Of a DNA stretch of 64,000 bases, positions 7,307-60,314 are shown piece by piece (the stretch's first letter is position 1; each line of letters begins with the position of its first letter). The notes under the pieces were generated by a model that had not been told where the DNA came from, did not search any database, and saw only the letters and a list, made by a program, of their open reading frames with translations. The stretch is taken from assembly GCA_946499505.1 (NCBI GenBank), contig CAMMSL010000008.1:34453-98452 (forward strand), read 5' to 3'. The position numbers and the translations under genes were made by a program. This DNA comes from an uncultured Lachnoclostridium sp. GTDB lineage: Bacteria; Bacillota; Clostridia; Lachnospirales; Lachnospiraceae.

Positions 7307-7531
7307 CACCTGTCAAGCCATGCGCAGATCACAGAGCAGGGCCGTGCGGACATAGTCCGGCACGGAACTGGGAGGTGAGATGCATAGGGCACTCAGCCCA
7401 AGTGAGATAGAGGGCGGAGCCCGGAATCGAACTTGCATGGCGAAAGGATGAGAGCAGATCACAGAACAGGGGAATGCAAACCAGAATCCATACAATATAC
7501 GAGCAGGGGTATGAATAATTAGGAGGAACAT
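7307..7531 (+). other. Gene-free block with a multi-hairpin fold
   Basis: No plausible gene here. GCCATGC (7317-7323) pairs with GCATGGC (7435-7441), enclosing three perfect or near-perfect hairpins: CCGTGCGGAC/GTCC-GGCACGG (7342-7365), GGGC-ACTCA-GCCC (7387-7399) and GGGC-GGA-GCCC (7412-7422). The phrase GCAGATCACAGA occurs twice, at the left edge (7324) and after the closing stem (7453). It could be a small RNA, a leader of ftsE or a dispersed repeat. Confidence 0.45.
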
Positions 7532-8218
7532 ATGATTGAATTAAGAAAGGTGACAAAGGAGTATTCCAAAGGTAATGCAGCCCTGAACGGAATTTCCGTA
7601 AAGATTGAACGGGGTGAGTTTGTCTTTATCGTAGGCGACAGCGGATCCGGAAAGTCTACTCTGATCAAACTGATCATGAAGGAGTTGAATCCGACCGAAG
7701 GAACTATCATCGTGAACGGACAGAACCTGAACAGGATGAAACACCGTAATATCGCGAAGTACAGAAGAGGACTCGGAGTTGTCTTCCAGGACTTCCGTCT
7801 GCTGAAAGACAGAAATATCTATGAAAATATCGCTTTTGCTCTGCGTGTGACAGAAACGCCGACCCGAATTATCAAAAAGAAAGTACCGGCGGCGCTTTCT
7901 CTGGTCGGACTGGCACAGAAATACAAATCCTTCCCGAGAGAGCTTTCAGGCGGCGAGCAGCAGCGTGTTGCCATTGCGAGAGCCCTTGTAAATGAACCTG
8001 CCATACTGTTGGCAGATGAGCCTACCGGAAACCTGGACCCGACGAACTCATGGGAAATCATGAGTATCCTGAAGGAGGCAAATGAACGCGGAACGACAGT
8101 ACTTGTTGTTACGCATAACCAGGAGATCGTAAACGAAATGAACGAACGAGTGATCACAATGAAACAGGGTGTGATCGTCAGCGATGAACAAAAAGGTGGG
8201 TATATAAATGAGGATTAG
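7532..8218 (+). CDS. ftsE: Cell-division ABC transporter ATPase FtsE
   Basis: The ATPase of the FtsEX complex, which controls peptidoglycan hydrolases at the septum or, in many Firmicutes, during elongation and sporulation. Walker A is GDSGSGKST near residue 36, the signature LSGGEQQRVAIARAL follows in the second half, and Walker B is AILLADEPTGNLDP. The 228-residue length is standard. An AGGAGG site precedes the ATG, and the end overlaps ftsX by 11 bases, which fits translational coupling. Confidence 0.95.
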   Translation: MIELRKVTKEYSKGNAALNGISVKIERGEFVFIVGDSGSGKSTLIKLIMKELNPTEGTIIVNGQNLNRMKHRNIAKYRRGLGVVFQDFRLLKDRNIYENIAFALRVTETPTRIIKKKVPAALSLVGLAQKYKSFPRELSGGEQQRVAIARALVNEPAILLADEPTGNLDPTNSWEIMSILKEANERGTTVLVVTHNQEIVNEMNERVITMKQGVIVSDEQKGGYINED

Positions 8219-9161
8219 TACAATTGGATACGTAGGAAAACAGGGTATCAAGAATATCTGGAGGAACAAGATGTTTTCACTCGCATCCATTGCGACGATG
8301 TCAGCTTGTATCTTCCTGTTTGGATTATTTTTCTCGATTCTTGTAAATTTTCAGTACATCATAAGAACTGCCGAGGAGGGTGTTGCCATCACGGTATTTT
8401 TCGATGAGGATGCAACAGATGAACAGAAACAGGAAATCGGGAAGGAACTTAAGGAACACAAAGGCGTAGCAGATGTGAAGTATGTCTCCGCAGATGAGGC
8501 ATGGGAAGAGTTCCAGAAAGAATATTTCGGCGACAACCCGGAACTGGCGGAGGGATTCAAGGATGATAATCCGCTTGCAAGCTCCGATAACTATGAAGTA
8601 TATATGGAGACTATAGACAATGATGACCAGAGTCTGGTAGCGCGAAGCCGTTCCCTTTCTGAGACGCAGAACGAACTGGTACAGTTTGCACAGGGATTAG
8701 ACGGCGTTCGTGACGTCAATAAGTCAGATGTGGTTGCAAATACGCTCTCCAGTGTAAATACACTGGTGGCCATCGTATCTATTGCAATAATTATCATACT
8801 GCTTGGTGTGTCTATCTTCCTGATCAGTAATACAGTCACAATGGGTATTACTGTCCGTAAGGAGGAGATTGCGATCATGAAATATATTGGTGCCAAGGAC
8901 TTTGTTGTCCGATCGCCGTTTGTGATCGAAGGTCTGATCATCGGTGTGTTCGGCGCTGCAATTCCGCTGACACTGCTGTATTTCCTGTATGATAAAGCGG
9001 TAGAGTACATTATGATGAAATTCGCCATCCTGCAGAATATTATAGATTTTCTGCCGGTGGGAACCGTATATCAGATTCTGCTTCCGATCGGGCTTGCCAT
9101 GGGTATCGGAATCGGTTTCCTGGGAAGTTTCTTCACAGTACGCAAGCATCTGAAAGTATAA
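8208..9161 (+). CDS. ftsX: Cell-division membrane protein FtsX
   Basis: The permease-like partner of FtsE. A first helix at residues about 22-45 is followed by an extracellular domain of about 140 residues that in other Firmicutes contacts a hydrolase or its adaptor, then three C-terminal helices. The cytosolic EEIAIMKYIGAKDFVVRSPF segment is the usual coupling helix of the FtsX/MacB family. Length 317 is normal. Downstream is a strong terminator, and then a CtpA-type protease; this neighbourhood (ftsE-ftsX-ctpA) is common in Firmicutes. Confidence 0.95.
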   Translation: MRISTIGYVGKQGIKNIWRNKMFSLASIATMSACIFLFGLFFSILVNFQYIIRTAEEGVAITVFFDEDATDEQKQEIGKELKEHKGVADVKYVSADEAWEEFQKEYFGDNPELAEGFKDDNPLASSDNYEVYMETIDNDDQSLVARSRSLSETQNELVQFAQGLDGVRDVNKSDVVANTLSSVNTLVAIVSIAIIIILLGVSIFLISNTVTMGITVRKEEIAIMKYIGAKDFVVRSPFVIEGLIIGVFGAAIPLTLLYFLYDKAVEYIMMKFAILQNIIDFLPVGTVYQILLPIGLAMGIGIGFLGSFFTVRKHLKV

Positions 9162-9228
9162 AATCATGGGCAGACCAGATATTTGTGCTGGAAGTATACT
9201 GATATGATATACAGGTAAGAGTAAGGGA

Positions 9229-9265
9229 GGACAAAGCGGAAAAGAGTTCCGCTTTGTCCTTTTTT
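9229..9265 (+). terminator. Terminator after ftsEX
   Basis: A perfect 13-bp stem, GGACAAAGCGGAA with TTCCGCTTTGTCC, a five-base loop and six T. Confidence 0.95.
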
Positions 9266-9303
9266 GGTAAAAGCTTGAACAATATCGGAGGCGTGGAGAG
9301 AAG

Positions 9304-10533
9304 ATGGATTGGAACAAGGAGAAAGGAAACGAAAGAGGAAAGTTTGGCATAGGTGTTCTGACAGGTGCGCTGGTCACTGCGCTGGTTATCTGTGGCGCGG
9401 CAGGAATGTGGAAAGTGTTTTCCGCTATACGGCATGGAAATTATACATCGGCGGGCACCGTGTCTGAAGCGGACGTAAATGAAAAGCTGGATCGGATCAA
9501 CAGCCTGATCGAGGAGTATTATCTGTATGAGGATGATATTGACGAAGACACGTTGATCGACGGCATATATTCCGGGTATGCAGAGGCATTGGGAGATCCG
9601 TATACAGAATATTATGATGAGGAGGAGACAGAAGCCCTCTATGAATCCACAAGCGGAGAATTTTCGGGAATCGGTGCTACAATGTCCCAAAATCTTGACA
9701 GTGGAGAGATAACAGTGAGCAATGTGTATCAGGATTCACCGGCAGACAAGGCGGGAATGAAACAGGGAGATATCATTTATGAGGTTGACGGGCGCTCTGC
9801 ATCCGGGCAGGATCTTGAAACAGTAGTATCCTGGATCAAAGGAGAGCAGGGGACAGATGTGACTCTTTGTGTGCTGCGGAATGGAGAAGAAGTAGAATTG
9901 ACGGCTACGCGCGATATTATTGAAGTGCAGACAGTCAGCAGTGAAATGAAAGATGACCAGATAGGCTATATAGCAGTAAGCGAGTTTGACAGCGTGACAT
10001 ATGATCAGTTTGAGGCAGCGCTTAATGATCTTGAGTCAAAGGGCATGCAGGGCCTGGTTATCGATCTGAGGGGAAATCCGGGAGGCAGTCTGACAACGGT
10101 GACGGATATGCTGAAGCTGCTTCTGCCGGAGGGGACGATCGTATCTACAAAAGATAAGAACGGCAATACCGAAGAAATCACCTGTGACGGGAAACATGAA
10201 TTCACAAAGCCTCTGGCTGTTCTTGTGAACCAGTACAGTGCAAGCGCTTCGGAAATATTCAGCGGAGCGATACAGGATTACGGCACGGGAACGATCGTAG
10301 GTATGACTACGTATGGGAAAGGCGTGGTACAGCAGCTCATGGATCTGGGGGACGGAACATGTCTGAAAGTGACCATTGCAGAGTATTATACGCCCAGCGG
10401 CAGGAGCATCAACGGAACAGGTGTGGAGCCGGATGTGGAAGTGGAATACGAGTATGATGAAAATAATCCGGATGCCGATAACCAGCTTGATAAAGCGCTG
10501 GAGGTCGTGCAAGGGGAACTTGAGCAGGAGTAA
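9304..10533 (+). CDS. S41-family C-terminal processing protease (CtpA-like)
   Basis: An exported serine protease of 409 residues. A membrane anchor at about residues 15-38 is followed by an N-terminal helical part, a PDZ domain (VYQDSPADKAGMKQGDIIYEV, about residues 140-215) and the S41 catalytic core. The catalytic Ser is in NQYSASASEIF and the Lys in TTYGKGVVQ, both as expected. EYYTPSGRSINGTGVEPD is the typical end. It follows ftsEX after a terminator; clostridial Ctp proteases are linked to sporulation signalling or cell-wall hydrolase turnover. It starts behind a GGAGGCGTGGAG site. Confidence 0.92.
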   Translation: MDWNKEKGNERGKFGIGVLTGALVTALVICGAAGMWKVFSAIRHGNYTSAGTVSEADVNEKLDRINSLIEEYYLYEDDIDEDTLIDGIYSGYAEALGDPYTEYYDEEETEALYESTSGEFSGIGATMSQNLDSGEITVSNVYQDSPADKAGMKQGDIIYEVDGRSASGQDLETVVSWIKGEQGTDVTLCVLRNGEEVELTATRDIIEVQTVSSEMKDDQIGYIAVSEFDSVTYDQFEAALNDLESKGMQGLVIDLRGNPGGSLTTVTDMLKLLLPEGTIVSTKDKNGNTEEITCDGKHEFTKPLAVLVNQYSASASEIFSGAIQDYGTGTIVGMTTYGKGVVQQLMDLGDGTCLKVTIAEYYTPSGRSINGTGVEPDVEVEYEYDENNPDADNQLDKALEVVQGELEQE

Positions 10534-55692: not shown

Positions 55693-55724
55693 CTTGTTGT
55701 CTCCTGTTTAGATGCGATAATTTG

Positions 55725-55773
55725 TGGACTCTGTCCATTTTTATAGGATAATGTATTTTGTGGACTCTGTCAA
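55725..55773 (-). promoter_or_regulatory. Promoter and paired MarR-type operators of the EamA/MarR-GNAT operon
   Basis: On the minus strand TTGACA (55773-55768), 17 bases, TATCCT (55750-55745). TGGACTCTGTCCA (55725-55737) is a perfect palindrome and TGGACTCTGTCAA (55761-55773) its near copy, 36 bases apart; one covers the -35 and the other sits just after the start point. Confidence 0.8.
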
Positions 55774-55838
55774 CAAAATATAGCAAATGCATGATTTAAA
55801 CCTGCATGATTTAAATATGGGAAAGAGTTATGTAACTA

Positions 55839-55898
55839 TTGACATTACAACATTAAGGTGATATTCTGACAATGCAAGATGTAATGGTTGATATTACA
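55839..55898 (+). promoter_or_regulatory. Promoter and operator-like repeat of the SirTM operon
   Basis: TTGACA (55839-55844), 17 bases, TATTCT (55862-55867). Just downstream TGTAAT (55880-55885) and ATTACA (55893-55898) form an inverted repeat, and another ATTACAA lies in the spacer. These are good candidates for binding the Rrf2 regulator encoded in the operon. Confidence 0.7.
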
Positions 55899-55938
55899 AT
55901 GATGCCGGCGGACAGCCGGAGATCAGGAGGCGGAGGAT

Positions 55939-56820
55939 ATGGCGATTTGGATGTCAAATAGAAAAGAATCAGACAAAAATACAGATCAGTCCCACAAGAA
56001 ACAGGAGGAGAGGCTTGACTATCTTCTCCATGAGTTCAAGGAGGATTCCGTTCAGTACAGAGATCTGGAAACCGGGGATGACTATGACGAGAAACGGAAA
56101 TATCTCCGGTCTTTTATGAATATCCGCATGCCGGGACCGATGGATGAAGATGTGGTGCGGGTTCAGGATGAATTCCTTGCCGAAGAGGCGAAAGAGAAAG
56201 GAATTGTAGAGCTTAAGGATATACCTGCAGCGGCAGAACAATACGGAAGCAGTCATCCATATGCAGATAAGATTTCCGTCTGGCAGGGAGATATCACCAG
56301 ACTGCATGTGGGCGCCGTCGTCAATGCGGCGAACTCCCAGATGCTGGGGTGCTTCGTGCCATGTCACGGATGCATTGACAATGCCATCCACAGCGCGGCG
56401 GGAATTGAACTTCGTGAAGCATGCAGTCATTATATGAACCGGAAGCGGATGCAGTATGGCCGCCGTTATGAGGAGCCCACAGGGCAGGCAGTCCTGACAG
56501 AAGGCTATAATCTTCCCGCAGAATATGTGATCCACACGGTCGGCCCGATCGTGGGAGGATATCTGGATCAGAAGTTGAGAAATGATTTAAAGAACTGCTA
56601 TCTGAATGTATTGAAATGCTGTGTGGAGCATAAGATCCGTTCCGTGGCATTCTGCTGCATCAGCACAGGAGAATTCCATTTTCCAAATGATGAGGCAGCG
56701 AAGATCGCGGTGGAGACTGTGACAGAATTCTTAAATGAGCACAGCGGGGAGTTTGACAGAGTTATTTTTAATGTATTCAAGGATATAGATAAAGAACTGT
56801 ATGAGAATGAACTGAGATAA
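55939..56820 (+). CDS. Zinc-macrodomain protein-ADP-ribose hydrolase
   Basis: A 293-residue protein. After an N-terminal helical region of about 110 residues, the macrodomain starts at KISVWQGDITRLHVGAVVNA and has AANSQMLGCFVPCHGCIDNA, then IHSAAG, TGQAVLTEGYNLPAEYVIHT and CCISTGEFHFPNDEAA. The Cys/His cluster in the second segment is the feature of the zinc-containing macrodomains that accompany SirTM sirtuins and remove ADP-ribose from protein. It is the first gene of an operon with an Rrf2 regulator, SirTM and a DUF5131 protein. Start follows GGAGGCGGAGG. Confidence 0.9.
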   Translation: MAIWMSNRKESDKNTDQSHKKQEERLDYLLHEFKEDSVQYRDLETGDDYDEKRKYLRSFMNIRMPGPMDEDVVRVQDEFLAEEAKEKGIVELKDIPAAAEQYGSSHPYADKISVWQGDITRLHVGAVVNAANSQMLGCFVPCHGCIDNAIHSAAGIELREACSHYMNRKRMQYGRRYEEPTGQAVLTEGYNLPAEYVIHTVGPIVGGYLDQKLRNDLKNCYLNVLKCCVEHKIRSVAFCCISTGEFHFPNDEAAKIAVETVTEFLNEHSGEFDRVIFNVFKDIDKELYENELR

Positions 56821-56865
56821 TACGGCATACAGCTGCCGATGATTATGGGAAGGAGATAGAGTTTT

Positions 56866-57309
56866 ATGCAGATATCGAGCAGATTTACCATTGCGATCCA
56901 TATGCTGACATGTATGGAGACATTTAAAGAGGAGTATAAGATAACCAGTGATTTTCTTGCTTCCAGTATCAATGTGAATCCGGTCATCATCCGCCGGATC
57001 CTGTCCCAGCTGAAAGACGCGGGACTGATCGAGGTAAAGAGAGGAACAGGCGGGGCTGCCATCATACAGCCGCCGGAGAAGATCACGTTTCTGGATGTCT
57101 ACCGGGCTGTGGAATGCATAGAGGAGAATACGCTGTTTCATTTCCATGAGAATCCGAATCCGGAATGTCCGGTAGGAAGAAATATCCACAATATACTGGA
57201 TGACAAGCTGATCCGGGTACAGGAAGCGATGGAGCGGGAATTAAAGGCTATCACGCTGGCGGATGTAATGGATGATCTGGAAAAAATCCTGAGAGGAGGA
57301 CAGCAATAA
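56866..57309 (+). CDS. Rrf2-family transcriptional regulator
   Basis: A 147-residue Rrf2 protein similar to the YwnA group: FTIAIHMLTCMETFKEEYKI at the N-terminus, winged helix NVNPVIIRRILSQLKDAGLI, then VKRGTGGAAI. Cysteines are in MLTC, VECIEE and PECPVGRN; this is fewer than the three-Cys cluster of IscR, so it may sense thiol or nitrosative stress by disulfide rather than by an iron-sulfur cluster. The stop overlaps the SirTM start by one base. Confidence 0.88.
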   Translation: MQISSRFTIAIHMLTCMETFKEEYKITSDFLASSINVNPVIIRRILSQLKDAGLIEVKRGTGGAAIIQPPEKITFLDVYRAVECIEENTLFHFHENPNPECPVGRNIHNILDDKLIRVQEAMERELKAITLADVMDDLEKILRGGQQ

Positions 57310-58178
57310 TGTTTTCCGGGCTGTTTACGCAGAAAAAAACAGAGACATATAACGATAAGATTGCCCGCCTGAAAGAGGCTCTTGAGGAAGCGGACGTTGT
57401 ACTCGTCGGCGCGGGAGCAGGCCTTTCCACGTCGGCAGGTTTTGTATATGACGGGGAACGTTTTCAGAAATATTTCGGGGACTTTAAAGAAAAATACGGC
57501 TTTCAGGATATGTATTCCGGCGGATTCTATCCTTATGATACACTGGAAGAACACTGGGCGTACTGGAGCCGCTATATCTGGATCAACCGTTATGCAGACG
57601 CCCCGAAACCGGTATATGACGAGCTGTTTGAACTTGTAAAGGATAAAGATTATTTTGTCCTGACGACCAATGTAGACCACTGTTTCCAGAAAGCAGGATT
57701 TGACAAGAAAAGGCTTTTCTATACGCAGGGAGATTACGGACTGTTCCAGTGCTCGGAACCGTGCTGCCAGAAGACATGGGATAACGAAGACGTGGTCAGG
57801 CAGATGGTGGAGCAGCAGAAGAATATGCGTATTCCGTCCGAACTGGTGCCGCATTGTCCGAACTGTGGGAAACCCATGTCCATGAACCTCCGGGCCGACG
57901 ATACATTTGTGCAGGATGAGGGCTGGTACGCTGCCTCAGAGCGGTATTCAGAATTCGTGAGACGGCATCAGGGTATGAAAACGCTTTATCTGGAGCTGGG
58001 TGTGGGGTATAATACACCCGGTATCATCAAGTATCCATTCTGGCAGGCAGCATACCGGAATCCGGAGGCAACATATGTGTGCATTAATTACGGTGATGCG
58101 GCAGCGCTGAAAGAGATTGCGGAGCGGTCGATCTGTATAGATGGGGATATAGGAGAAGTTCTGGAGAAAATCAGATAG
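57309..58178 (+). CDS. Class M sirtuin (SirTM), protein ADP-ribosyltransferase
   Basis: A 289-residue sirtuin. NAD-binding VVLVGAGAGLSTSAGFVYDG is followed by the SirTM-specific FYPYDTLEEHWAYWSRYIWI. TTNVDHCFQ and YTQGDYG show that the deacetylase His is replaced by Gln, as in SirTM enzymes that mono-ADP-ribosylate proteins instead of deacetylating. The zinc ligands are in QCSEPCC and HCPNCGKP. In staphylococci and streptococci the target is a lipoylated GcvH-like protein encoded beside it; no such gene or lipoate ligase is found in this window, so the substrate here is open. Confidence 0.9.
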   Translation: MFSGLFTQKKTETYNDKIARLKEALEEADVVLVGAGAGLSTSAGFVYDGERFQKYFGDFKEKYGFQDMYSGGFYPYDTLEEHWAYWSRYIWINRYADAPKPVYDELFELVKDKDYFVLTTNVDHCFQKAGFDKKRLFYTQGDYGLFQCSEPCCQKTWDNEDVVRQMVEQQKNMRIPSELVPHCPNCGKPMSMNLRADDTFVQDEGWYAASERYSEFVRRHQGMKTLYLELGVGYNTPGIIKYPFWQAAYRNPEATYVCINYGDAAALKEIAERSICIDGDIGEVLEKIR

Positions 58179-58193
58179 AAGGAGCGTGAATAT

Positions 58194-59069
58194 ATGCATG
58201 ACATCTGGAATCCGTGGCACGGCTGCAGGAAGTGCTCGGAGGGGTGTGAAAACTGTTATATGTATTTCCTTGACCGGATGCGGGAGCAGGATGGAAGCCG
58301 GATCTACCGGACGAAGAATGGCTTCCGCTATCCGCTGTCAAAGGACAGAAAGGGAAAGTACAAAGTAAAAAGCGGGGAGATGATCCGGGTCTGCATGACT
58401 TCGGATTTTTTTCTTGAAGAGGCGGATCCGTGGAGAAACGAGGCGTGGTCAGTTATGCGGGAGAGAAAAGATGTGAAGTTTTTTCTCCTGACGAAGCGCC
58501 CGGAACGTGTATCCTCCTGCCTGCCCTATGACTGGGGAGAAGGATGGGAGAACGTCTTCTTTAATGTGACCTGCGAGAATCAGCGGCGGGCGGATGAAAG
58601 AATCCCGATCCTGTTTGAGCTGCCTTTTAAGCATAAAGGAATCATGACCGCTCCGCTGATCGGTCCGATAGATATTGAAAAATATCTGGCAGCAGGGCAG
58701 ATTGAGCAGGTGATATGCGGCGGTGAGAACTATGACGGTTCCCGGCTGTGCCGGTATGAGTGGGTGAAACTCTTAAGTGACCAGTGCAGAAAGTATGGCA
58801 TTACGTTTAATTTTATCGAGACGGGAACCTGTTTTGCGGTCGGAGAAAAGGTATACCGTATTCCGGATAAGCGGACACAGTCCCGGCAGGCGTTCAGATC
58901 GGGGCTGAATTATAAAGGGAAAGAGATCCATTTCCACCTGACAGATGAATGGGGATATAACATTCCGGAGGAAGAACTCTACGTTCCCCATTATCATCCG
59001 GTCACATGTGCGGAATGTTCCAACCGTCTGACGTGCAATGGATGCTCAGACTGTGGGAAGTGCGGGTAA
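58194..59069 (+). CDS. DUF5131 (phage Gp37/Gp68-like) protein
   Basis: A 291-residue protein beginning MHDIWNPWHGCRKCSEGCENCYMY, the hallmark of DUF5131, a radical-SAM-like family with a C-x-x-C-type cluster site near the N-terminus. VKFFLLTKRPERVSSCLPYD and VICGGENYDGSRLCRYEWVK are further conserved blocks. The C-terminus is Cys-rich (CAECSNRLTCNGCSDCGKCG). It starts 15 bases after SirTM behind GGAGCG. Phage relatives are of unknown function; a role in modifying or repairing the ADP-ribosylated target is only a guess. Confidence 0.82.
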   Translation: MHDIWNPWHGCRKCSEGCENCYMYFLDRMREQDGSRIYRTKNGFRYPLSKDRKGKYKVKSGEMIRVCMTSDFFLEEADPWRNEAWSVMRERKDVKFFLLTKRPERVSSCLPYDWGEGWENVFFNVTCENQRRADERIPILFELPFKHKGIMTAPLIGPIDIEKYLAAGQIEQVICGGENYDGSRLCRYEWVKLLSDQCRKYGITFNFIETGTCFAVGEKVYRIPDKRTQSRQAFRSGLNYKGKEIHFHLTDEWGYNIPEEELYVPHYHPVTCAECSNRLTCNGCSDCGKCG

Positions 59070-59190: not shown

Positions 59191-59991
59191 ATGCAGACAA
59201 GATCAAAGATGCTGAAAAAAGCTTTTACCACGGCATTCCCATATACGATACCGATCTTTGCAGGATTCTGGTTTCTTGGGATTACATACGGGATTTATAT
59301 GAATGTCTCGGGATTCAGTTTCTGGTATCCGATGCTGATGAGCATTACTATATTTGCAGGTTCTATAGAGTTTGTGACTGTCAATATGCTACTGGGGGCG
59401 TTTAATCCGCTGCAGGCTTTTGCCATGACTCTGATGATCAATGCGAGGCACTTATTCTACGGGATTTCCATGCTGGACAAGTTCCGCGGCGTGGGACGCA
59501 AGAAATTCTATCTGATCTTCGGAATGTGTGACGAGAGCTTTTCCATAAACTATACTGCGGATATTCCGGAAGATGTTGACCGGGGATGGTTTATGTTTTT
59601 TGTCACGCTTCTGAACCATTTTTACTGGTTCTCTGGCGCGACGCTTGGAGGAATCTTCGGTTCACTGATCCATTTCAACACGGAAGGACTGGAATTTGTT
59701 ATGACTGCTATGTTCGTGGTGATCTTTATGGAACAGTGGCTCAAAGAAAAGAATCATACGAGTTCGATTCTGGGGCTTATTATTTCACTTATCTGTCTTA
59801 TTGCTTTCGGAGCGGATAACTTTATCATACCGGCGATGCTGGCAATCCTTGCGGTGCTGTCACTGCTGAGAAGACCGCTTGAAGCCGGCGGGGCAGCAGA
59901 TGACGACAACGGGAACAGTGCTGATCCAGATGGTTCCGGGCAGCACAGAATGGAAATCGGTGAATCCGGGAGAGGAGGAGAGGCACAGTGA
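59191..59991 (+). CDS. azlC: AzlC-family branched-chain amino acid exporter subunit
   Basis: A 266-residue membrane protein, the large subunit of the AzlCD exporter. Start at [12 protein letters not shown] behind GGAGGGG; in-frame codons from 59038 overlap the DUF5131 gene and have no site. [40 protein letters not shown] and [14 protein letters not shown] are AzlC landmarks. The C-terminal 35 residues are hydrophilic and variable. The GTG of azlD overlaps its stop. Confidence 0.93.
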
Positions 59992-60314
59992 CTTTGGCAC
60001 AACAGATCATAACAGTTGCAATGGTAGTGCTCGGTACGGCGGTGACCCGCTTTCTGCCTTTTCTCATTTTCCCGGCTGGGAAACAGACGCCGAAGTATAT
60101 GCAGTATCTTGGGAAAGTGCTCCCGGCAGCAGTGTTCGGCCTGCTGGTCATTTACTGTCTGAAGGATGTGAGCGTTTTCACTGGAAGTCGCGGCATACCG
60201 GAGCTGATCTCGATCATACTTGTGATCCTGCTTCATGTGTGGAAACGGCAGATGCTCCTGTCTATTGCAGGCGGGACGGTGTGCTATATGCTGCTTGTGC
60301 AGCTGGTGTTTTGA
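59988..60314 (+). CDS. azlD: AzlD-family branched-chain amino acid exporter subunit
   Basis: A 108-residue four-helix protein with GTG start overlapping azlC (GTGA). [11 protein letters not shown] and [20 protein letters not shown] are typical of AzlD. With AzlC it exports leucine, isoleucine and valine. Confidence 0.93.

Follow-up and report, generated by a model that had tools for sequence, protein, structure and literature searches.

We found an operon of four genes, encoding a macrodomain protein, an Rrf2 regulator, a class M sirtuin (SirTM) and a DUF5131 protein, in a 64,000-nucleotide stretch of contig CAMMSL010000008.1 from an uncultured Lachnoclostridium sp.; this whole stretch is called the window below. 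The operon is likely to be a SirTM/Zn-macrodomain system for reversible ADP-ribosylation that lacks the carrier protein GcvH-L, is controlled by a dedicated thiol-switch Rrf2 repressor, and has as its target a non-lipoylated redox protein. The four open reading frames (ORFs) are on the same strand (55939..59069, +) with intergenic gaps of 45, -1 and 15 bases, the SirTM start codon overlapping the Rrf2 stop by 1 base, and form one tight operon. An earlier note, made from the sequence alone, had described four packed genes here; all four reading frames and their families are present, as are the TTNVDH and YTQGDYG motifs that it named. The features of the operon and its promoter region are as follows.

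55831..55849, + strand: operator 1, TGTAACTATTGACATTACA, from a pattern search; overlaps the -35 box; identical letters in genomes G003, G026 and G054
55839..55867, + strand: promoter, -35 box TTGACA (55839-55844), 17 bp spacer, -10 box TATTCT (55862-55867), TG before the -10 box; 10/12 matches
55880..55898, + strand: operator 2, TGTAATGGTTGATATTACA; begins 49 bp after the beginning of operator 1, near the expected transcription start
55939..56820, + strand: Zn-macrodomain of the protein-ADP-ribose hydrolase family, 293 amino acids; C138-x4-H143-x-C145 in GCFVPCHGC
56866..57309, + strand: Rrf2 regulator, 147 amino acids; Cys16, Cys84 and Cys101 (CPVG)
57309..58178, + strand: SirTM, class M sirtuin, predicted NAD-dependent ADP-ribosyltransferase, 289 amino acids; N121, D123, Q140; cysteines 148/152/183/186
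58194..59069, + strand: DUF5131 protein (PF07505), 291 amino acids; cysteines 11, 14, 18 and 21 (C14/C18/C21 forming CX3CX2C); six-cysteine C-terminal tail at 272-290

The macrodomain protein scored 126.7 bits with Macro (PF01661) and 302.1 bits with the protein-ADP-ribose hydrolase model NF003163 (cut-off 272), and aligns almost full-length with 8rsi and 5kiv, GC-x4-H-x-C being common to all. It belongs to the Zn-macrodomains by its Cys/His/Cys motif in place of the glycine-rich loop together with the NF003163 score; C138, H143 and C145 are presumably the zinc ligands. The sirtuin scored 23.1 with Pfam SIR2, just under the cut-off of 24, and matched the solved SirTM structure 5a3a with an E value of 1.3e-71. 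TTNVDH lies at residues 119-124 and YTQGDYG at 138-144. All 98 close relatives keep N121, D123 and Q140, and 97 or 98 of them keep the cysteines 148, 152, 183 and 186, some genes having been fetched and counted twice. Replacement of HG by QG is a mark of SirTMs (PMC4518038, cited here, like PMC11490716 and PMC10715087, from part of its text). Q140 in that position, N121, the four zinc cysteines and linkage to a macrodomain in the same operon identify the protein as a class M sirtuin.

Relatives, given below as G numbers for genomes and L numbers for loci, were compared at several levels. The genus-level set comprises 146 genomes, including that of the window (3.08 Mb, 99.91% complete), and SirTM-like genes are present in 72 of them. 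Neighborhoods were mapped for 24 genomes with a class A/B SirTM and 13 with tandem SirTM genes, out of these 72; the mapped genomes are a non-random sample, chosen by score and by the presence of DUF5131 or tandem genes, and three of them fall in neither the wider class nor random order. The wider set of SirTM loci holds the best 80 of at least 592, with 5 kb of upstream sequence present in 52 of the 80, so that counts in this set are lower bounds. Genes in the loci were called as mechanical ORFs and by similarity to one representative per family. Conservation counts omit loci L089-L148 and still contain the duplicates L001/L177 and L006/L180. A macrodomain is near SirTM in 60 of the 80 wider loci.

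A TGTAAT/ATTACA repeat at one promoter had been reported in the earlier note; repeat and promoter are both present, but there are really two inverted repeats, and they bracket the promoter. The operator pattern TGTAAY-N7-RTTACA occurs twice in the window versus 0.01 times expected in dinucleotide shuffles, and the genome has no other exact match. If one mismatch is allowed, the genome gives 41 places versus 31 for the reversed pattern, which is near background. A promoter scan was weak when taken alone (9 promoter-like sites in the scanned region versus 5.9 in shuffles). G003 and G026 have almost the same promoter sequence letter for letter, both operators are also found in G054, and the promoter is conserved in relatives with other gene orders. 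The operator recurs before SirTM-macrodomain-Rrf2 operons of different gene order in G006, G047, G048 and G022, and with one mismatch in G046.

In 1.69 Mb of sequence from 135 loci, some of them overlapping, there were 57 operator matches, versus 0, 0 and 1 in first-order Markov resamples. Of the 20 loci that have a close Rrf2, 18 carry the operator, versus 9 of the 115 that lack one, counts in which related loci are not independent. Spacing was exactly 49 bp in 15 of 19 close operator pairs, with three at 42 bp and one at 48 bp. Search with the two-site pattern, one mismatch allowed, yielded 28 sites in 23 of the 146 genomes (own genome included), and none for the reversed pattern. SirTM lies within 3 kb of 20 of these 28 pairs, and SirTM, macrodomain or Rrf2 within 1.5 kb of 23; each of the remaining five has nearby a gene resembling a flavin/2x[4Fe-4S] protein, one at only 33 bits. 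A SirTM-like gene is present in 22 of the 23 genomes with an operator pair, versus the 72 of 146 overall. Among the genes that the operator precedes in relatives is one for an NAD(P)-binding protein (L171, PF13460), with comparable genes in L160, L178 and L021; another, in L159, encodes a flavin reductase (PF01613) and is followed by an apparent aldo/keto reductase gene (named by eye). These operator-linked genes point to flavin and iron-sulfur (Fe-S) redox functions. Rrf2 probably binds the predicted operators that bracket the promoter, and the regulatory half of the finding is stronger than a note confined to one stretch of letters could know.

The regulator itself matched Rrf2 (PF02082) at 118.9 bits; its best NCBIfam model is HypR (NF041852), at 59.9 bits versus a cut-off of 180. 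In an alignment of the window protein with 19 close Rrf2 sequences, including that of L200, which has no macrodomain gene next to it, Cys16 and Cys101 are conserved in 20 of 20 and Cys84 in 19 of 20. Regulators of the IscR/NsrR type, which are the Fe-S cluster members of the Rrf2 family, have three clustered cysteine ligands. We rejected this type here: the cysteines are only at 16, 84 and 101, and the NsrR model gave 20.3 versus 182 bits. Rrf2 family membership plus a conserved candidate sensing cysteine, Cys101, fits a thiol switch. It is well supported by the sequence that the operon has a dedicated, autoregulated redox (thiol) switch, with the Rrf2 protein as its predicted repressor. Rrf2 is conserved beside SirTM in relatives, lying within 5 kb in 14 of the 24 mapped genomes. 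Switching by redox or nitrosative stress had been proposed in the earlier note; thiol control is supported by the conserved cysteines, but this operon gave no evidence for the nitrosative part. The sole hint of a nitrosative signal, which we rejected, comes from outside this operon: a Prismane gene (hydroxylamine-reductase type) and a Crp-type regulator lie about 3 kb from another SirTM locus of the genome.

The operon might work as follows. In unstressed cells Rrf2 would occupy both operators, one over the -35 box and the other just past the expected start, and silence the operon, its own gene as well. It would let go once its cysteines (Cys101, perhaps with Cys16 or Cys84) are oxidised or alkylated. 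SirTM would then use NAD+ to place ADP-ribose on an acidic or cysteine residue of a non-lipoylated redox protein, and the mark would be transient because the Zn-macrodomain would strip it. DUF5131 is probably co-produced, and may act on the target or be the target. The SirTM and macrodomain chemistry is taken by analogy from characterised homologues, while Rrf2 binding to the sites, the direction of repression, cysteine sensing and the role of DUF5131 are what we infer from the sequence.

Several observations count against this picture. Rrf2 is within 5 kb of SirTM in merely 14 of the 24 mapped genomes and in 5 of the 80 wider loci, so that most wider SirTM loci must have other control; an HxlR-type gene is found within 6 kb of SirTM in 44 of the 80. 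HypR of Staphylococcus aureus senses through a Cys33-Cys99' disulfide (PMC10715087), and the Rrf2 of the window is without a cysteine near position 33, so that a HypR-like disulfide would need Cys16 or Cys84. No operator was seen before the SirTM fragment of G019, and L061 and L207 have a close Rrf2 but no operator match. Five of the 28 operator pairs precede other genes, so that in relatives such sites are not confined to SirTM. Finally, binding to the operators, sensing through thiols and the existence of a modified protein are all inferred.

The target probably has to be sought outside the lipoylated proteins. The classic mechanism would have SirTM modify a lipoylated GcvH-L, in this case one encoded elsewhere in the genome, and in its favor GcvH-L is the only SirTM substrate known to the 2024 paper (PMC11490716; also PMC4518038). 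Searches of the 99.91%-complete genome gave 0 matches to GcvH (PF01597) and 0 to LplA-type lipoate ligase (PF21948), the control for each being positive in 13 of 14 genomes. The sole PF03099 protein is a BirA-like repressor-ligase, and no lipoyl carrier was found genome-wide, both PF00364 proteins bearing the biotin motif EAMKLM; lipoyl synthase was not searched for. No genome of the genus had a GcvH match above 100 bits, and four had matches of 20 to 23 bits. A profile built from six Clostridia GcvH proteins reached its positive control 5a35 at 41.5 bits, and in the fetched loci found only its own six seeds and one 15.8-bit biotin carrier. The 5a35 entry belongs to the 2015 SirTM paper, and we take it for the GcvH-L of S. 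pyogenes. Lipoyl-GcvH-L, the sole published target, is thus unavailable, since neither GcvH nor lipoate ligase nor lipoyl carrier was found, and lipoyl-GcvH was ruled out as the target on these grounds. In addition, Zn-macrodomains from a minimal lone pair and from fusions failed to demodify GcvH-L in a published assay (PMC11490716). The classic mechanism is therefore extremely unlikely here.

The statement in the earlier note that GcvH-L and LplA2 are missing holds for the operon and, by these searches, for the genome, where no such pair was found. Its premise that the two genes are normally in the operon is right for Lactobacillales and Staphylococcaceae, but bacterial SirTMs are reported from independent operons as well as extended ones, Lachnospiraceae being listed among the carriers with the form unspecified (PMC4518038). 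The lack of GcvH-L in a SirTM operon is accordingly not new, because such operons are already published. Of the proposed variant system with a different target, what survives is that lipoyl-GcvH-L is most unlikely to be modified; as a type, SirTM operons without GcvH-L had already been described.

For the relatives a candidate target can be named. Of the 80 loci, 29 have an rSAM_ACGX maturase (a relative of the radical-SAM/SPASM family TIGR04340, scoring at least 300 bits to one representative) no more than 8 kb from SirTM, and the macrodomain is absent from 9 of those 29. An ACGX-type ORF was upstream of the maturase in 6 of 7 regions examined. Three peptides were run against NCBIfam and all match TIGR04341: L010 4657-4893 and L002 1704-1889, which are from SirTM clusters, and L186 12004-12246, from G047, whose SirTM is on another contig. 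Within 6 kb of SirTM there is a nitroreductase-like gene in 20 of 80 loci and a flavin/2x[4Fe-4S]-like gene in 39. G057 has macrodomain, Rrf2, maturase, nitroreductase, flavo-ferredoxin, SirTM and DUF5131 in a single cluster. In L010 and L012 the ACGX peptide has an operator pair, 42 bp apart, in front of it, and in L030, L172, L186 and L206 it has one site, these six loci having been inspected for ACGX because of prior operator matches.

These associations suggest that the target in the wider family is the ACGX system, either its Cys/Asp/Glu-rich peptide or the adjoining flavin/2x[4Fe-4S] protein, with the window retaining no more than writer, eraser and switch and having moved to another target. 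We consider this unlikely. The genome of the window yielded neither an ACGX maturase over the cut-off nor an ACGX peptide, and the maturase is present in only 12 of the 146 genomes. The peptides of L002 and L003 have no operator before them, the pair in L021 precedes the NAD(P)-binding gene rather than an ACGX peptide, nearly a third of the ACGX loci (the 9 of 29 above) are without a macrodomain, and a gene neighborhood is not a substrate assay. A bolder version, slightly more doubtful still, is that gut Clostridia have an Rrf2-switched redox regulon in which the ACGX peptide, matured by the radical-SAM enzyme, and its partner flavo-ferredoxin replace the lipoyl-GcvH-L of Bacilli as the redox carrier that is reversibly ADP-ribosylated, the window being a reduced branch that keeps writer, eraser, switch and DUF5131. 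If the ACGX reading were true, it would mean ADP-ribosylation of a ribosomally made natural product. The ACGX system is the lead candidate target in relatives; there is no lead candidate in the window itself. The literature searched, with most subscription papers and preprints outside it, contained nothing on the DUF5131 or ACGX names, and no paper that joins macrodomain, sirtuin and radical SAM.

The DUF5131 protein matched PF07505 at 134.7 bits (cut-off 28.9), which places it in that family. C14, C18 and C21 are kept in 24 of 25 close rows, the remaining row being a gap. In alignment A1 the six-cysteine tail is common to 20 close sequences and absent from four distant ones; C14 is replaced in three of these four, whereas C11, C18 and C21 are invariant, so that the family motif may be C-x6-C-x2-C. 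The earlier note called the protein radical-SAM-like; the CX3CX2C that would fit this is present here and in the close rows, and is conserved in only part of the family. The protein scored 29.3 bits with the radical-SAM model rSAM_mob_pairA (cut-off 355). Profile comparison, with shallow alignments, gave probabilities of 3.8 with rSAM_ACGX and 0.7 with DUF1848, and the single match to solved structures, with an E value of 1.9, was read as chance. DUF5131 of this subclass is possibly an Fe-S radical-SAM-type enzyme. In G007, and in locus L208 (7805-8777), the position directly 3′ of SirTM is filled by a DUF1848 protein instead of DUF5131, and DUF1848 is near SirTM in 7 of the 80 loci (L029, L033, L050, L065, L069, L071 and L075), all seven sharing CX3CX2C.

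Whether DUF5131 belongs to the functional unit is a closer question. There is a substantial possibility, somewhat short of even, that it is a mere neighbor, the unit being macrodomain-Rrf2-SirTM and DUF5131 a resident before AzlC or defence-type cargo. Across the genus DUF5131 is often followed by AzlC or an AzlC-start-like sequence whether or not SirTM adjoins, and in many genomes no intact SirTM does. The DUF5131 proteins of G057, G019 and G046 are 95-96% identical despite far more divergent SirTMs, G008 has macrodomain-Rrf2-SirTM without any DUF5131 match, and DUF5131 matches two PADLOC candidate-defence models at 97.5 and 99.5 bits. DUF4143-type ATPase genes lie between SirTM and DUF5131, or directly before DUF5131, in G057, G019, G054, G025, G046 and G048. 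Against the neighbor explanation, DUF5131 is conserved beside SirTM: it is directly 3′ of SirTM in G003, G026 and G002, and in other Clostridia records it begins 8-11 bases 3′ of SirTM in L002, L003, L026 and L080 (shortened), with a broken copy in L005. SirTM remnants stand 5′ of DUF5131 as fragments in G025, G046 and G057 and as a shortened gene in G019, and the six-cysteine tail is peculiar to this DUF5131 subclass, the four distant sequences being without it. Some SirTM-like gene is present in 22 of 23 genomes with the close DUF5131 subclass, SirTM being common in the genus anyway. The SirTM-DUF5131 adjacency is probably ancestral, with DUF5131 retained as SirTM decays; because DUF5131 outlives SirTM, a partnership of the two is only possible. 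The earlier suggestion that DUF5131 takes the place of GcvH-L/LplA2 is left unsupported, since the gene is often found in front of AzlC next to a shortened or fragmentary SirTM, or with none beside it. As a demonstrated GcvH-L replacement it was rejected, occurring also without SirTM beside it.

The same genome has a second SirTM locus, L181 (G000 contig C52), where two tandem SirTM-like genes at 7373-9971 are 37% and 35% identical to the SirTM of the operon. A divergent Rrf2 is beside them, and there is no macrodomain in the fetched stretch. In the 13 mapped genomes with tandem loci, Rrf2 is within 2.5 kb in 12, and a macrodomain was found in none of the fetched stretches. Relatives of the L181 locus are L183 and L195-L205, most with an Rrf2 beside them that has one conserved cysteine. 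Among 28 tandem-locus proteins, 15 have Thr120-Asp123-Gln140, 12 have Ser-Glu-Glu and one has Thr-Asp-Leu. All 12 loci with at least two tandem copies hold at least one of each main type, so that the tandem looks like one canonical (QG) plus one altered (EG) copy. A TGTWA-N9-TAACA repeat is present in 8 of 11 tandem loci (strand scanned).

Unrelated genes are found 3′ of SirTM in several loci: DUF4143 ATPases, Schlafen/AlbA_2 and RhuM/Fic genes, some of them PADLOC candidates (L172 9423-11227, L173 11144-12663, L206 8675-10361, L054, L063 and L067). In L172, L206, L063 (twice) and L067 a tail fragment of SirTM comes after such a gene, while in L054 a SirTM fragment lies between an unidentified gene and an AlbA_2 gene. 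The two SirTM tails of L206 are 73% alike, which argues against a fresh duplication. The 3′ end of SirTM looks like an insertion hot spot. These arrangements, with PADLOC-candidate genes (DUF4143 ATPase, RhuM/Fic) directly behind SirTM, raise the idea that an NAD-using SirTM and a reversing macrodomain form a defence or toxin-antitoxin-like module in a defence hot spot. We find this very unlikely: macrodomain, Rrf2 and SirTM matched no PADLOC model, the operon is linked with redox genes through its operator sites, and SirTM-like genes are present in about half of the genomes (the 72 of 146), which we read as more typical of a stress gene than of sporadic defence.

The remaining neighbors in the window are AzlC and AzlD (branched-chain amino acid transport), 3′ of DUF5131 at 59191-60311, and a divergent EamA gene on the other side of the operon. 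Between the operon and EamA, TTTGTGGACTCTGTC occurs twice, 36 bp apart (at 55721 and 55757; window 55721-55771). The neighbor of the EamA gene encodes a MarR-GNAT fusion, and the paired TTTGTGGACTCTGTC is a possible operator of the EamA operon.

The 2024 paper calls elusive the physiological role of the signalling, what is modified outside the extended operon and what other SirTM/Zn-Macro systems act on (PMC11490716). The operon described here offers a handle on the target question, combining a regulator that has a defined two-site operator with a host whose genome yielded no lipoyl carrier. Candidate targets co-encoded in relatives are the ACGX peptide, the flavin/2x[4Fe-4S] protein and DUF5131. 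Confirmation of the operator would tie ADP-ribosylation of the sirtuin type in gut commensals to thiol or electrophile stress. In the literature searched we did not find the two-site operator, the DUF5131 neighborhood, the ACGX-SirTM link or the tandem macrodomain-free SirTM locus.

Among known systems, the ACGX radical-SAM/SPASM system (TIGR04340/TIGR04341) shares its locus, and sometimes operator sites, with SirTM in relatives, but was not found in the genome of the window. S. aureus HypR (PMC10715087) resembles the Rrf2 of the operon in family, in a conserved cysteine near positions 99-101 and in having its own gene in the controlled operon; the Rrf2 of the operon differs in scoring below the HypR cut-off, in having no cysteine near position 33 and in its neighbors, ADP-ribosylation genes rather than MerA. 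The extended operon of Staphylococcaceae and Lactobacillales (PMC4518038) shares adjacent SirTM and Zn-macrodomain genes, QG for HG and a proposed link to redox stress; here GcvH-L, LplA2, OYE and LLM are missing, Rrf2 and DUF5131 are present instead, and no lipoylation genes were found in the genome. The lone SirTM/Zn-macro pairs (PMC4518038; PMC11490716) likewise have a writer and an eraser without GcvH-L and a target likewise unassigned. Rrf2 and DUF5131 are absent from the main text of both papers, and the operon of the window differs from the lone pairs by its dedicated Rrf2, its two-site operator and the DUF5131 gene that follows.

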